Positions 9,876 to 35,408 of a stretch of 41,239 nucleotides of DNA are shown here, one piece after another. The DNA comes from an uncultured Desulfosporosinus sp. (GTDB taxonomy: Bacteria; Bacillota; Desulfitobacteriia; Desulfitobacteriales; Desulfitobacteriaceae), in NCBI GenBank assembly GCA_927405585.1, contig CAKMJS010000037.1, forward strand, positions 1-41,239. Direction: 5' to 3'. A model generated the notes under the pieces. That model was not told the DNA's origin. It ran no database searches and saw only the letters and a list, made by a program, of their open reading frames with translations. Numbering within the stretch: the first letter of the stretch is position 1; every line of letters begins with the position of its first letter. The position numbers were made by a program, and so were the translations under genes.

Positions 9876-10098
9876 CTACAACACCCCTTAATCTTAACAC
9901 TTTTTTCATTATACTCTTGTGCCTCTTGCTTGACGCAAACAACGCAGCAAGTTCCCTGGTCGTTCCTTGCTATCGTTCCAAATCTCCATGGACCCAGCTA
10001 GAGGAAGTTTCAATGTTAATTTCATGCTTCCTCTTATCTTCCCAGCCGGAGGGTCTGCGATACACGGCGAGAAGCCTTTACGTGAGTCGTAGCCAAAC
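9876..10098. other. Gap upstream of pfk: promoter candidate and repeat-like sequence
   Basis: No gene. On the minus strand a perfect TATAAT (9913-9908) lies about 35 bases before the pfk start, with a poor -35 (TTGCGT, 9938-9933, 19-base spacing). The part around 9941-9959 resembles the direct repeats found downstream of hisF. The rest (about 9960-10098) shows nothing I can name. Confidence 0.35.
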
Positions 10099-10100
10099 TG

Positions 10101-10215
10101 CGGCTTTAATCCACTCTCTCAAAGTAGGGCGGAACACAAGGACGTGTTCCGACGGCCATGCGACAAGGATGTCGCTTTGGACGGGTCCCTACCCGCTTAC
10201 ATAAGGATTAAAGCC
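10101..10215 (+). ncRNA. Nested multi-hairpin element with two CsrA-type GGA loops
   Basis: An outer perfect 11-base stem (GGCTTTAATCC 10102-10112 with GGATTAAAGCC 10205-10215) encloses a second stem (GTAGGG 10124-10129 with CCCTAC 10187-10192). Inside that are two hairpins: CGGAACAC/GTGTTCCG (10130-10137 and 10144-10151, loop AAGGAC) and GCGACA/TGTCGC (10160-10165 and 10170-10175, loop AGGA). Read on the plus strand, both loops fit the CsrA core ACARGGAUGU, the second exactly and the first with one change. The element begins right at the hisZ stop codon. It may be a structured RNA or a mobile hairpin repeat; its transcription is not shown by the sequence. Confidence 0.45.
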
Positions 10216-11424
10216 CTAGCTTGGCACGACAATCGTATGGCTGAACAAGTGTCTCGCTGACCCTCCCACTTCCTCCCCAACGCACAAAACCTCATAAATA
10301 TTCTTGCTCATCGCCATTTTCTGGGCAACTTCACCATCTATCGCTCCTAGGGCCATTTCCACTCGTTTTCCCTGGGCCCTCAATTCCTGGCACTTCTGAA
10401 TAATCTGCTTTGCATCAGCTCCATAAACCAAGACATCCGCTCCCGCCATAGGAACAAGTGGGAATTGTTCTAACAGAGTTCCAAGGTGGATCGCAAAGCC
10501 AGTTGCTGGTTGTGGCACCCCAAAATCAGCATATAAGGCATCGTAACGTCCTCCCTCCACCACCGGAAAACCAACTCCCGGAACATATCCTTCAAAAACT
10601 GCCCCCGTATAATACGAAAAACCACGAAGTATACCTAAATCTAACGACACATTCGATTGCACCCCAAAGTTGTGTAAATACCGATATGTTCGTCTCAAAC
10701 TTTCGACCGCTTCACGAATCGCTGGTCGCTCACTCCAGCCGAGGACTTCATCGAGAATCTCCTCACCCCCATGAAAATGGGGTAAATGGAGTAAAAGCTC
10801 TTGAACCTTTCCTGGTAACCCACTTTGCCTGACTAAACTTTCCACACCCACCATATCTTTGCGTGCTAAAGCTTCTTCCAACTTGACTTGAATCCCCTCA
10901 TCGACTCCAGCTTCCAACATAAGCCCGGCAAATATGCCCATATGTCCAAGATTAAACTGATAGTTTTTTAAGCCCAAACCGGCAATGGCTTCCACCGCGA
11001 GCGCGATTACTTCAGCATCCGCTAATTCATGGTCAGAACCCACGAGTTCTACACCCACTTGGCGGAACTCTCTATGTCGAACGGTGGTGTTTCGATAGAC
11101 ATCGGCACCATAACACAAGCGAAGGGGGAATTCCCCACCACGCATTCGTGTGCTCACAAGCCGTGCGATCGGTATGGTCAGTTCAGGACGTAGTGCTAGA
11201 ATATGCCCCTTACGATCAAAGAATTTGTATAATGCATCGTCTTGCTCAACGTCTGGCTGGACGCATGCCGAAAACTCCAAGGTTGGAGTTAAGACTTTCT
11301 GATAAGACCATTGCCGAAAAAGCGCCAGAATATCTTGCTCTAAGCGCTCTTGCACAGCGATTTCCTCCGGTAATAAATCACGCATTCCTTCTGGTATGCG
11401 TTGTCCTAGATTCGTTCTTAACAT
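10216..11424 (-). CDS. hisZ: ATP phosphoribosyltransferase regulatory subunit HisZ
   Basis: HisZ is a catalytically inactive class II histidyl-tRNA synthetase paralogue. It assembles with short-form HisG, is needed for its activity and senses histidine. The 402-residue protein has the motif 2 region (YGADVYRNTT, REFRQVGVELVG) and a late GGRYDALYADFG motif, and ends in a small tail rather than a full anticodon-binding domain. True HisRS is longer and has the HisA and HisB signature motifs intact. It is 30 bases downstream of yerC and is separated from hisG by pfk and the bla pair, so HisG and HisZ are made from different transcripts. Confidence 0.93.
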   Translation of the reverse strand: MLRTNLGQRIPEGMRDLLPEEIAVQERLEQDILALFRQWSYQKVLTPTLEFSACVQPDVEQDDALYKFFDRKGHILALRPELTIPIARLVSTRMRGGEFPLRLCYGADVYRNTTVRHREFRQVGVELVGSDHELADAEVIALAVEAIAGLGLKNYQFNLGHMGIFAGLMLEAGVDEGIQVKLEEALARKDMVGVESLVRQSGLPGKVQELLLHLPHFHGGEEILDEVLGWSERPAIREAVESLRRTYRYLHNFGVQSNVSLDLGILRGFSYYTGAVFEGYVPGVGFPVVEGGRYDALYADFGVPQPATGFAIHLGTLLEQFPLVPMAGADVLVYGADAKQIIQKCQELRAQGKRVEMALGAIDGEVAQKMAMSKNIYEVLCVGEEVGGSARHLFSHTIVVPS

Positions 11425-23147: not shown

Positions 23148-23178
23148 TTAAATAATTATGATTAATTGAATGCCTAAA

Positions 23179-23349
23179 AAAACGAGTACACTTTCCTTTA
23201 AGTCAAAGGAAGTGTTTAAAAGGGAAGTCAGTTTAACTCTGACGCGGTCCCGCCACTGTGATAGGGAGTAGCCTTACAAGATGTCACTGGATTTTATCTG
23301 GGAAGACGTAAGACTACGATGAACTAAAGTCAGGAAACCTGCTCGTTTT
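23179..23349 (+). promoter_or_regulatory. Cobalamin riboswitch controlling cbiMNQO
   Basis: Closing stem AAAACGAG (23179-23186) with CTCGTTTT (23342-23349). Inside lies the conserved B12-box region GACGCGGTCCCGCCACTGTGAT (CGCCACTG at 23251-23258) and the downstream AAGTCAGGAAACCTGC. These are the hallmarks of the adenosylcobalamin-sensing element. It is followed by an intrinsic terminator (23419-23455) before cbiM, so B12 should stop transcription of the cobalt transporter. Confidence 0.93.
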
Positions 23350-23418
23350 GAACTTCACCTTGAGCACCCACGACGGATGGGTAGTAGGTAAGAATAACTA
23401 TGTTCTGTAGACATATTT

Positions 23419-32603: not shown

Positions 32604-33107
32604 TTACTTGTCTTTTAACCTTGAAAATGAATCATATAACATAGATTCTTTTGCACCTAACTCATTTACTCGATGCAGATACTTAAATACATAAAGTAAT
32701 AAAACGTGGGAAAAAATTGCAAACATAAAGGTCTCCATGATACTCCACCCACGAAGGAATATTTGATTAAGCACCAAGGCTATATAATTCATTGCTGTAG
32801 CCCATAAAGTAAAAAATAATACAAACCATACCTGATAGCGCGGAAAACGCCATAGTAGATAGCCAAACATTAATGTGACTGCAAACCAGCTTAGCGTAAA
32901 AAATACAGGTATATTATAAATCATTATTAAATCAGACTTAAAAATCCATCGTTTAAATATATTTACTGCAAATATTTGTACTATCCAGGTGTATACGAAA
33001 CCTCCTAAAAAGGCGAAGGGCATAACCCTTCTGATGTAGTTTAGGGGTACTAAGAATAGAACAAGGGACCAGTAGGCGACAGCCTGAGTAACCCAATAAA
33101 GCTCCAT
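32604..33107 (-). CDS. Small polytopic membrane protein, CBO0543-like architecture
   Basis: A 167-residue protein with about five membrane helices (about 8-24, 30-48, 62-84, 92-112 and 120-138), rich in Trp, Phe and Tyr, with NIPVFFTLSWFAVTLMFGYLL as the most family-like segment. Overall plan and size resemble the CBO0543-type protein at 29942-30424, but identity looks low and the assignment is tentative. ATG 33107 is chosen, since GGGAGG lies 8 bases upstream; the frame opens at a GTG three codons earlier within that site. Confidence 0.65.
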   Translation of the reverse strand: MELYWVTQAVAYWSLVLFLVPLNYIRRVMPFAFLGGFVYTWIVQIFAVNIFKRWIFKSDLIMIYNIPVFFTLSWFAVTLMFGYLLWRFPRYQVWFVLFFTLWATAMNYIALVLNQIFLRGWSIMETFMFAIFSHVLLLYVFKYLHRVNELGAKESMLYDSFSRLKDK

Positions 33108-33236
33108 ATCGAACACCTCCCCCCATTATTATGTTTATTTATATTCTTTTTATGCTGACAAAGGTTTTTATTGTTTGTCTATATGATGACATAAAAAAGG
33201 CCTCAACCCTTCCGGTGAGAACCGAGTAAATCAAAC

Positions 33237-33263
33237 AAAAAAAATCCCCTCACTAGGAGGGGA
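33237..33263 (-). terminator. Terminator of small unit A
   Basis: Stem TCCCCTC/GAGGGGA (33245-33251 and 33257-33263), loop ACTAG, followed on the minus strand by eight T residues (33244-33237). Confidence 0.85.
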
Positions 33264-33305
33264 AATGAAGAAGGAAAAGAAATGAGAAAAAGATTGGTAT
33301 ATTAA

Positions 33306-33320
33306 CCGTTAAATTAACGG
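33306..33320. repeat. 15-base palindrome in unit A, shared in degenerate form with unit B
   Basis: CCGTTAA-A-TTAACGG is perfect here. A related CCGCTGAATTAACGG is in the second unit at about 33754-33768. Confidence 0.6.
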
Positions 33321-33358
33321 GTAATTAGCTGTTGAATTGATATTTAATCTAAGTACTC

Positions 33359-33436
33359 TTACTCTTCAGCAGTTGCCAAAGCTCTGATCAATGTGGGAAT
33401 TAGCCCGATTATTAATAAAACGACGATCAATTCCAT
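33359..33436 (-). CDS. Possible 25-residue hydrophobic peptide (unit A)
   Basis: Begins MELIVVLLIIGLIP and ends RALATAEE: one membrane-spanning helix with an acidic C-terminal end. AGAAGGAGATGA lies upstream but 13 bases away, longer than ideal. It sits in a self-contained transcription unit: PhoP-like boxes and a -10 element upstream (33495-33548) and a strong terminator downstream (33237-33263). It is slightly reminiscent of KdpF-size peptides but not recognisably one. The second unit (33671-33890) has no matching reading frame. Confidence 0.4.
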   Translation of the reverse strand: MELIVVLLIIGLIPTLIRALATAEE

Positions 33437-33494
33437 TAGCTCGACTCATCTCCTTCTGAAAGCTTACTCTCTGCTGAACACTTTCACTGTCTTT

Positions 33495-33548
33495 AGTATA
33501 GGCTAAACCTGTTACCGTTCAGTGTCTATTATGTGAAGAATATGTGAA
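33495..33548 (-). promoter_or_regulatory. Four PhoP-like boxes plus -10, unit A
   Basis: On the minus strand TTCACA, TTCACA, GACACT and GTAACA start exactly every 11 bases (33548, 33537, 33526 and 33515), then 9 bases on is TATACT (33500-33495). Direct repeats of TT(A/C)ACA with 5-base gaps are the known layout of Gram-positive PhoP (OmpR-family) activator sites. Confidence 0.6.
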
Positions 33549-33670
33549 ACTTATAGTAGTAAAATGATTGATCCTGAGTTGAAGTACAGATAGACCCCCG
33601 CGTCCGGCGGTCTATTGCCCAATGTCCCAACCATCCTAAGAATAGAAGGAACAAGAAAGACTTTCGAATG

Positions 33671-33705
33671 AAAAAATGGTCCCTCCGTTCATTAAGCGAA
33701 GGGAC
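33671..33705 (-). terminator. Terminator of small unit B
   Basis: Stem GTCCCTCCG (33679-33687) with CGAAGGGAC (33697-33705), 8 pairs plus one G-U pair, followed on the minus strand by six T residues. Confidence 0.8.
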
Positions 33706-33836
33706 AGATCACTTTACTAGATGAAGAAGACTAAAAGTGTGCTTTATGTTAACCGCTGAATTAACGGTAACAAGCTAGGTATGTTCTATTGGCCCTGTTG
33801 TATCGCTTGAATCGGTATGTTGTATCTGTTGTATTT
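33671..33836 (-). ncRNA. Possible small RNA, unit B
   Basis: Between the PhoP-like promoter at 33837-33890 and the terminator at 33671-33705 the transcript would be about 160 nt. It contains no ATG-led frame with a ribosome binding site. It has repeated unstructured ATACAACA segments (three copies, about 33797-33836) and a degenerate copy of the unit A palindrome. A non-coding RNA is the simplest reading. Confidence 0.4.
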
Positions 33837-33890
33837 ATAATAGGCTAAACCTGTTACCATTCTGTGACCGTTATAAGAACAGTATGTGAA
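33837..33890 (-). promoter_or_regulatory. Four PhoP-like boxes plus -10, unit B
   Basis: On the minus strand TTCACA, TTCTTA, GTCACA and GTAACA start every 11 bases (33890, 33879, 33868 and 33857). After the same 9-base gap (GGTTTAGCC) comes TATTAT (33842-33837). The arrangement and the last 25 bases match unit A, so the two promoters are duplicates. Confidence 0.6.
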
Positions 33891-34042: not shown

Positions 34043-35314
34043 TTACTGACCAGTCTCAAGCCCTTTTACGCCAATATCCCGCCGGAAATGGGCATTCGGA
34101 AACTGGATTTGATCCACGAGAGCATAAGCCTTTTCCCTAGCTTCATGGATTGTTGTTCCTTCAGCCGTGACCCCTAACACCCGTCCACCGGTACTGACAA
34201 GCTGTCCTTCGCTGATACCCGTTCCGGCATGAAAGATAACCTTATCTTGGTCCTTAAGTTCTGGCAAGTGGATTGGAACCCCCATAGTGTAAGCTAACGG
34301 ATAACCCGGCGCTGCCATCACAACACAAACTGCGACGTCTTCTTTCCACTCCAGACGAGCCTCCGATAAGCGTCCCTCTGTACACGCCCAAAGGATGGGC
34401 AAGAGATCGGATTTTAGAAGTTTCATCACCACTTGTGTTTCTGGGTCGCCAAACCGGACGTTGTATTCCAGAAGTTTCGGTCCCTGCGCCGTTAGCATCA
34501 GCCCTAAGAATAGAATACCTTGAAATGGAGTCCCACGTTCACGCATCACCTTTAAGGTTGGGTCAACGAGGTCACGCATTACAATCGCTTCAATCTCAGA
34601 CGTCCAAATTGGGGGAGGGCTATAAGTTCCCATTCCTCCAGTATTCAGTCCTTGGTCGCCCTCTAGGGCCCGCTTGTGATCCTGAACTGGAACCATAGGG
34701 TACGCCGTTTCTCCATCTGAAAAGCAGAGCAAGCTAACCTCTTGCCCTTCCAGGAATTCTTCAATGACAAGCTTTTTGCCAGCGCTTCCAAAACCGCCCT
34801 CCATGATTTCATCGACAGCCCGAAGTGCCGTTTCTAAATCCAGCGCAACGATAACACCCTTACCTGCGGCTAAGCCATCTGCCTTTAGAACGCAGGGGGC
34901 TCCAATGGTTTTGACATAGCTCTTCGCTTGTTCAGAAGCTTCAAACATCTTCCACTCCGCCGTCGGAATCTTGGCGCTTTCCATAATGACTTTGGCAAAG
35001 GACTTGCTTCCTTCCAGCTGGGCAGCAGCCTGAGTTGGCCCGAAAATCCGCAAACCCTCCTTCTGAAAGGCATCTACAATCCCTAAACTTAAGGGATCTT
35101 CTGGACCAACAAGCGTTAAATCGATCTTCTCTTTAAGAGCAAACTCCACCAACGCAGCAATCTCCTGAGCCGGAATATGCACATTCCACAACGCGGTCCC
35201 AGCATTCCCCGGTGCAACAAAGAGACGTTCTAGGTCTGAGCTTTGCGCCAACTTCCAGGCCAGAGCATGTTCCCGTCCGCCGTTACCTACGATTAATACT
35301 CGCTTCTTACCCAC
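34043..35314 (-). CDS. purD: Phosphoribosylamine-glycine ligase PurD
   Basis: PurD (GARS) joins phosphoribosylamine and glycine with ATP to give GAR. The 423-residue ATP-grasp protein starts near VLIVGNGGREHALAWKL. It has GPEDPLSLGIVD, CVLKADGLAAGKGVIV, EEFLEGQEVSLLCFSDG, GGMGTYSPPP, the metal-binding EYNVRFGDPETQ, and GYPLAYTMG near the end. I place the start at GTG 35314, with GAGGT 6 bases upstream; the open frame to 35395 adds 27 residues that partly read a palindromic repeat. Last gene of the operon. Confidence 0.95.
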   Translation of the reverse strand: MGKKRVLIVGNGGREHALAWKLAQSSDLERLFVAPGNAGTALWNVHIPAQEIAALVEFALKEKIDLTLVGPEDPLSLGIVDAFQKEGLRIFGPTQAAAQLEGSKSFAKVIMESAKIPTAEWKMFEASEQAKSYVKTIGAPCVLKADGLAAGKGVIVALDLETALRAVDEIMEGGFGSAGKKLVIEEFLEGQEVSLLCFSDGETAYPMVPVQDHKRALEGDQGLNTGGMGTYSPPPIWTSEIEAIVMRDLVDPTLKVMRERGTPFQGILFLGLMLTAQGPKLLEYNVRFGDPETQVVMKLLKSDLLPILWACTEGRLSEARLEWKEDVAVCVVMAAPGYPLAYTMGVPIHLPELKDQDKVIFHAGTGISEGQLVSTGGRVLGVTAEGTTIHEAREKAYALVDQIQFPNAHFRRDIGVKGLETGQ

Positions 35315-35380
35315 TTCTACACCTCGTCTCCTCGATAATAAGTAGATCATAAAACTGCAATGCATCGCGTTTAAAACAGT

Positions 35381-35408
35381 GTAGGGGCAATTCATGAATT
35401 GCCCTTAC
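35381..35408. repeat. Palindromic repeat, copy 3
   Basis: GTAGGGGCAATTCA/TGAATTGCCCTTAC, one change from a perfect palindrome, between purH and purD. TTACGACGT-type sequence follows twice up to about 35432. Confidence 0.75.

Follow-up and report, generated by a model that had tools for sequence, protein, structure and literature searches.

Two tandem units of a Desulfosporosinus contig belong to a multicopy family of predicted small RNAs behind OmpR-type direct-repeat promoters

Two tandem units, A and B, on the minus strand of a contig of an uncultured Desulfosporosinus sp. (CAKMJS010000037.1 of assembly GCA_927405585.1; the whole stretch analysed, 41,239 nucleotides, is referred to as the window) belong to a gene family that is repeated around the chromosomes of this genus and that is apparently unreported so far. 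We think it reasonably probable that this is a multicopy family of small RNAs (sRNAs), essentially of Desulfosporosinus, which is activated by a regulator of the OmpR/PhoB type and blocks translation, type A carrying in addition a peptide. In this proposal, which is read from the sequence, a membrane sensor would switch on transcription of the RNAs through an OmpR/PhoB-family response regulator, probably one other than PhoP, and envelope stress may be what it serves. Each RNA would carry a hairpin at its 5' end, a single-stranded linker rich in pyrimidines and an intrinsic terminator. The linker, with its complementarity to a Shine-Dalgarno sequence and in many copies also to the start codon, would most likely block the initiation of translation of target mRNAs. 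The unit A form would also encode a conserved single-span membrane peptide of 25-30 residues and is therefore a candidate dual-function RNA, and unit B is the copy linked to purD, whose 3' half has diverged. The features of the window are collected in Table 1.

Table 1. Features of units A and B and of their neighbourhood (positions in the window)
Feature	Position	Strand	Description and basis
Unit A	33237..33490	-	predicted RNA of ~250 nt: peptide frame and sRNA core
Promoter A	33495..33548	-	four boxes, 11-base steps, 9-base gap, -10 TATACT; read directly
Peptide Shine-Dalgarno, likely	33450..33455	-	AAGGAG, 13 nt 5' of ATG
Unit A peptide	33359..33436 (including stop)	-	25-residue membrane peptide MELIVVLLIIGLIPTLIRALATAEE
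Unit A 5' hairpin of sRNA core	33298..33326	-	encloses perfect palindrome 33306-33320
Unit A linker	33264..33297	-	G-poor, has CUCAUUUCUUUUCCUUCUUC, i.e. anti-AUG plus anti-Shine-Dalgarno
Unit A terminator	33237..33263	-	CCCCTC-CTAGT-GAGGGG and T-run; stem 33263-33245 found by terminator scan
Unit B	33671..33830	-	predicted non-coding RNA of ~155-160 nt, purD-linked copy
Promoter B	33837..33890	-	four boxes, 11-base steps, 9-base gap, -10 TATTAT; read directly
Unit B 5' hairpin stem	33753..33767	-	degenerate palindrome; fold, window-free core profile
Unit B terminator	33671..33705	-	GTCCC...GGGAC and T-run; centroid fold
purD	34043..35395	-	upstream neighbour; recognised by eye from sequence and purine-gene neighbours

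The two minus-strand promoters with four boxes at 11-base steps, as given in a preliminary description of this stretch, are confirmed by direct reading of the sequence. The boxes are TTCACA / TTCACA / GACACT / GTAACA in promoter A and TTCACA / TTCTTA / GTCACA / GTAACA in promoter B, in both cases followed by the identical 9-base gap GGTTTAGCC and a -10 element, as had been described. Most of the boxes are indeed TTCACA-like; this does not extend to GACACT (box 3 of A) and TTCTTA (box 2 of B), which are poor boxes. The two promoters are identical at 49 of 61 positions, and the next-best 61-mer matches to promoter A in the window reach 32 positions (minus strand) and 31 positions (plus strand). 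When the two window rows are taken out of the promoter alignment and the profile is built from the remaining 15, promoters A (E 9e-15) and B (E 1.7e-12) are its sole significant matches within the window, the next match having an E of 2.6. With the window row likewise left out, a core profile gives E values of 1.8e-18 for unit A and 5.3e-7 for the hairpin part of unit B, and the match that ranks after these has an E of 0.51.

The palindromic segment that was said to be shared is present in both units, as the perfect palindrome CCGTTAATTTAACGG in unit A and as a degenerate copy in unit B, and T-tailed terminators are found after both promoters, in agreement with the same description. The unit B terminator (about 33705-33676) occurs in the centroid fold, is absent from the minimum-free-energy fold and was missed by the terminator scan because its loop has 9 bases, the scan maximum being 8. 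Unit B was described as lacking a frame, and none is seen by eye. Its 3' half is diverged, with a linker without CCUCC, a second terminator type and a poor fit to the family; a related 3' module is also found in G009:C284, G009:C164 and G011:C11. Downstream of unit A (32604-33116, minus strand) is a hypothetical membrane protein of ~167-170 residues with no Pfam or NCBIfam match. Elsewhere in the window Rfam identifies a cobalamin riboswitch (23167-23360) and a TwoAYGGAY RNA (10079-10237). For units A and B, Rfam gives no match at E<=1, and a search of 11 further loci at the gathering cut-off gives nothing except two riboswitches.

The spread of the family was followed with a sequence-only promoter model (R1) and a core model with 16 pairs (R2). 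A DNA search with the whole region matches 12 of 21 genomes, all of one genus and at many places in each. Both models match all 29 Desulfosporosinus genomes, R1 with 1-27 sites each among the matches listed and R2 with 1-9 cores each; the units had been described as a pair, which is correct for the tandem duplication of small units and understates a dispersed family of this size. The four-box spacing and the peptide are kept in these relatives, the 11-base steps and the peptide frame recurring in the genus genomes searched. An R1 promoter followed by a core is found after a purD-like gene end in 13 of the 29 genomes, the window genome included (the gene names purD, phoP, phoU, kdpDE and HtrA are assigned by eye throughout). 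Across 73 genomes of the order (22 genera), R2 matches the genus only and R1 matches the genus and one site in G051, giving one promoter match and zero core matches in the 44 non-genus genomes. Inspected by eye, the sequence after the G051 site has a new hairpin, a stretch rich in pyrimidines and a CCCCTC...GAGGGG terminator, and therefore a second genus may possess a divergent relative. A 44-bit promoter pattern finds 16 stretches in 84,980 species, 16/16 of them in Desulfosporosinus; as this pattern is strict, catching 19 of 150 known sites, it carries little information on distant relatives. In the open-licence PMC literature on Desulfosporosinus and Desulfitobacterium, no title or abstract start concerns these RNAs.

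Promoter and core mostly occur together. Among the R1 matches listed, a promoter is located within 250 nt upstream and on the same strand for 65 of 100 R2 matches, against 3 of 100 in the downstream direction, and 35 of the 100 have no listed promoter; inspection by eye of 20 of these 35 shows a weak R1-like promoter in 4, another four-box class in 4 and no clear box promoter in 12. The fetched loci contain at least 150 distinct promoter sites, 75 of which are followed by a core (at least 20 bits, within 600 nt), the rest being 20 peptide-frame loci without such a core, 38 sites with a longer frame and 17 with none of these, and a promoter-core combination of this kind is present in these loci for all 29 genomes. 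Some copies in G002 lack a promoter and have an apparent peptide remnant. In the window genome, contig C158 has two more sRNA copies beside pst, phoU-like and phoP-like genes: G000:C158:7586-7754 (L221) is convergent to pstB, ~0.5 kb past the pstB 3' end, and the second (L222, about 511-601) has no promoter among the R1 matches listed. An sRNA promoter is also seen ~1.7 kb upstream of kdpDE-like genes (L250), and another fetched stretch with an sRNA promoter (L253) also holds a KdpE-like regulator.

The core consensus begins with a 5' hairpin, ATTACCCGTTAATTTAACGGTTAAT or its GC form, and a spacer; the G-poor linker comes next, and the terminator CCCCTC-CTAGY-GAGGGG with a T-run ends the core. 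The first alignment, of 22 cores, was poor around insertions, with 5 alifold pairs that were all in the terminator, and it was replaced by one of 15 sequences, leaving out unit B, L012:1296, L015, L022, L024, L029 and L032. R2 still matches the left-out unit B (39.8 bits), L012:1296, L015, L029 and L032, and the cores of L022 and L024 (G006, G010) are absent from its matches; unit A, which scores 98.7 bits, is itself one row of R2. Counted over 76 matches in 70 chosen loci, in an alignment to R2 that leans toward the model, both-sided changes occur at 13 of the 16 pairs, with 81 such cells vs 34.4 in shuffles (0/500 as high), and the covariation is 0.235, the slid controls reaching no more than 0.091; on all measures the alignment exceeds the whole set of 500 shuffles and of slid controls. 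Pairing is often lost at the outermost position of each helix and at the outer positions of the hairpin (49, 31, 27 and 36 of 76 rows unpaired at four pairs). In 74 sequence-profile cores the inner stem agrees with these results, and its most variable pair is CG in 35, TA in 23, TG in 11, CA in 2 and other in 3; U-G is tolerated and C-A is avoided, a pattern that fits an RNA of this strand.

The linker could be parsed in 65 of 79 cores. CCTCC or CCTTC is present in 58 of these 65 (shuffles 15.3), and 42 have TCAT with a C-rich motif after it (shuffles 5.6). The shuffle controls, here as for the pairs, are not probabilities because the genomes within the genus are related, which inflates such contrasts. 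Such an anti-Shine-Dalgarno and anti-start linker between stem-loops is present in unit A (CUCAU, CCUUC) and not clearly in unit B. The linkers have 5% G and a mean unpaired probability of 0.75, vs 0.60 across the whole core, and the complement of the consensus linker resembles a ribosome site, being GAAGGAGGA, a short spacer and ATGAG. When a 20-mer of the unit A linker is compared with the window genome, allowing up to 3 mismatches, only the antisense of the linker itself is found, and therefore targets, if any, would depend on shorter pairing. Several leaders of protein genes start, by eye, with a degenerate form of the hairpin, but counting by regular expression does not separate them from shuffles (4/38 vs 3.4), and leader hairpins were therefore rejected.

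The frame of the 25-residue membrane peptide proposed for unit A is present, and its class recurs in 23 of the 29 genomes (typical sequence MKLII.LLLIGMIPSLLRMLPTNEYSD); in G004 and G021 a second peptide class is the only one seen. Altogether 33 small hydrophobic frames are found after the promoter, in 25 of the 29 genomes, these frames being selected by length, hydrophobicity and charge with no shuffled control. For 20 distinct unit A-class sequences, taken from 24 of the 33 frames and compared over their first 20 codons, pN/pS is 0.33; variability by codon position is 0.21/0.07/0.31, with the second position being the least variable; as judged from these codon comparisons, the peptide shows purifying selection. 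Pfam and NCBIfam give no family above cut-off for the peptides. The second peptide class (MKLVIFLMLIGIDCVILIKSIVRSDQYLN type) is located after the same promoter in L096, L056, L136, L137, L144 and L165, mostly without a recognisable core. In L264 a unit A-class peptide and a core occur with no recognisable box promoter, and in L242 (3672-6966) a TTCACA-class promoter occurs with another small membrane peptide (MKYITLYLICLALMLAYNYAAIYIRRD), which is positioned between an apparent truncated HtrA gene and a regulator/kinase pair.

The promoters are of the OmpR-family type, as had been recognised before, with direct repeats at 11-bp steps immediately upstream of the -10 element. The domains of 20 longer-frame proteins encoded behind TTCACA promoters, including the full sulfatase of the window genome, are of the envelope type in 7 (an LtaS-like sulfatase, which is the one of the window genome, two CWB2, LysM, a PpiC foldase, GT2 and GtrA), this share being a plain count without enrichment statistics. 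Four of the 20 have other domains (DUF2680, NAD-binding, pro-kumamolisin and FAD-binding) and nine have none; many of these remaining proteins start, by eye, like exported ones. These genes suggest, with moderate confidence, that the sensor system is envelope-related. The regulator itself was sought by scanning the fetched flanks of 17 OmpR-type (PF00486) loci of the window genome with the promoter and core profiles, and no TTCACA-class motif is found there, the best promoter score being 2.3 bits. CssR was rejected as a candidate regulator, as no comparable box is found in the available parts of the CssR literature.

A second box class has the same spacing. Four TTTCAG boxes, again in 11-bp steps, precede 4 of the 20 inspected cores without a listed promoter. 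The TTTCAG-N5 repeat pattern has 120 matches (some overlapping) in 24 of the 29 genus genomes, with zero for the reversed control and none in the window genome. In G021, G008 and G032 the boxes are directly upstream of a response-regulator gene, and the helix of this regulator in G021 and G032, ENIVEVYIRSLR, is similar to the CiaR helix VVEVYVSKVRKKL given in the available text of PMC3091779. In L278, L297 and L303 (about 1500-2300) four or more TTTCAG repeats precede a response regulator, with an accA-like gene adjoining, and in L278 and L297 an apparent kinase accompanies the regulator. Elsewhere the genes behind TTTCAG repeats are those of secreted proteins and of a PpiC-like foldase, and a few sRNA copies also follow such repeats. 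A clear same-strand downstream core is found in 3 of 30 fetched TTTCAG loci (L280, L283 and L288, already among the four cores mentioned above), and L299 and L302 hold a core in another arrangement.

The preliminary description had connected the units with PhoP and phosphate, and the reading of A and B as PhoP-activated phosphate-starvation RNAs agrees with the geometry of the Pho-type sites of the genus, which also have four boxes, 11-bp steps and a similar gap to the -10 element, as well as with the position of the sRNA copy near pstB on a contig with pst, phoU-like and phoP-like genes. The letters are nevertheless different. The Pho-type site is TTAACn-N5-TTTACA-N5-TTCAT-N6-TTTACA (pstS of the genus, phoP-like and phoU-like genes of the window genome), with TTCTT replacing TTCAT at the phoU-like gene, and a weaker, irregular version upstream of pstS of the window genome. 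In a leave-one-out assignment, 150/150 sRNA-class and 54/55 Pho-class sites fall on their own sides, the 55 Pho-type sites being box-score picks in pstS-family loci and one window-genome contig rather than mapped promoters; the single misplaced site appears to have been picked by chance. When the scored sites are left in the matrices, the phoP-like site of the window genome scores 47.2 (Pho) vs 9.3 (sRNA), and promoters A and B score 45.7 and 39.4 (sRNA) vs -4.8 and -12.9 (Pho). R1 has no match in 30 pstS-family loci (E up to 5, default filters), and none of the 20 scanned proteins is recognised as a phosphate-uptake protein. PhoP was dropped as the leading regulator once the Pho-type sites of the genus had been collected, and we regard its role here as unlikely.

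A passive, dispersed REP/MITE-like repeat that happens to hold a promoter and a terminator is a very unlikely explanation of the copies. Such a repeat would agree with the many dispersed and tandem copies, with the cores that lack a listed promoter (35 of 100) and with the promoter-less copies of G002, but it is at odds with the compensatory changes fitting an RNA of one strand, the purifying selection on the peptide, the recurrent purD-linked position and the presence of the same promoter before unrelated protein genes. The core could also be chiefly a cis element, the RNA being the mRNA of the peptide, the linker regulating its own message and the short units being decayed copies. The frequent occurrence of the peptide after the promoter is in line with this, as is the predicted minimum-free-energy fold of unit A, in which linker and Shine-Dalgarno region of the peptide are base-paired (z -2.0, 7/200 shuffles as low). 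Against it, 51 of 100 core matches are within 60 nt of the promoter and have no space for a peptide, yet these short cores, including most of the purD-linked set, keep the hairpin, linker and terminator; we consider this reading improbable. Somewhat less doubtful, and still a tentative alternative, is that the family is an interchangeable output module of several OmpR-type systems, the RNA of the peptide form serving as a silent sRNA or else as the mRNA of the peptide. The promoters of the copies would then be of the TTCACA class or, in four other genomes, of the TTTCAG class, which also precedes the gene of an OmpR-type regulator with a CiaR-like helix; the anti-Shine-Dalgarno linker is predicted to fold onto the peptide's own ribosome site, and therefore each RNA would be in one of the two forms.

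If the favoured reading, a family of translation-blocking sRNAs, is correct, then multicopy anti-Shine-Dalgarno sRNAs under OmpR-type sensors would have arisen once more, in strict anaerobes that are far from Streptococcus and Listeria, and no match to described RNA families is found for them. Why many copies are kept would be testable across 29 genomes with 1-9 core copies, and in the peptide-coding form the same RNA would be combined with a membrane micropeptide that is conserved. The cleanly separate box classes, having identical geometry within one genus, would also provide a test bed for the separation of targets between OmpR-family paralogues.

The anatomy of the family resembles that of the csRNAs of Streptococcus, which belong to the CiaRH system (PMC3091779, PMC4211561). 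As far as these are described in the available text, the likeness includes several related sRNAs per genome, some of them in tandem, a genus-wide spread, promoters whose direct repeats have an 11-bp step and lie upstream of the -10 element and, in many members, an unpaired region that is flanked by two stem-loops and is complementary to the Shine-Dalgarno sequence and the start codon. The promoter letters differ: the CiaR repeat, NTTAAG-N5-TTTAAG in the accessible part of PMC3091779, is absent here, where the boxes are four in number and mostly TTMACA/TTCACA-like/KTCAY/GTAACA. The peptide-coding form in the Desulfosporosinus family is another difference, as is the absence of an Rfam match, a comparison that does not presuppose a csRNA model in Rfam. 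The LhrC sRNAs of Listeria are described, in the available text of PMC4132741, as multicopy, LisRK-dependent and induced by cell-envelope stress; their CU-rich motifs, which are in loop A, in the linker and in the loop of the terminator, pair with the Shine-Dalgarno region. No LisR consensus was known according to the same text. The Desulfosporosinus family likewise has up to nine core matches per genome (some genomes have a single one) and a CU-rich anti-Shine-Dalgarno motif in most of the parsed linkers. It differs from LhrC, as far as the source describes it, in that the motif is mainly in the linker, and in its peptide form, none being described there for LhrC.

The likeness to Pho-box promoters concerns the OmpR-family geometry, with the 11-bp step and the boxes reaching the -35 position, whereas the letters are distinct from those of Pho-type sites of the same genus. 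SR1 of Bacillus is a dual-function RNA, which base-pairs and also encodes a small peptide, SR1P. The Desulfosporosinus family differs in sequence and taxon, and here the dual role is predicted and the peptide is a membrane peptide. Since the anatomy is shared with the csRNAs and LhrC, and the box letters and an Rfam match are not, the family would work like these RNAs and not be a member of either.
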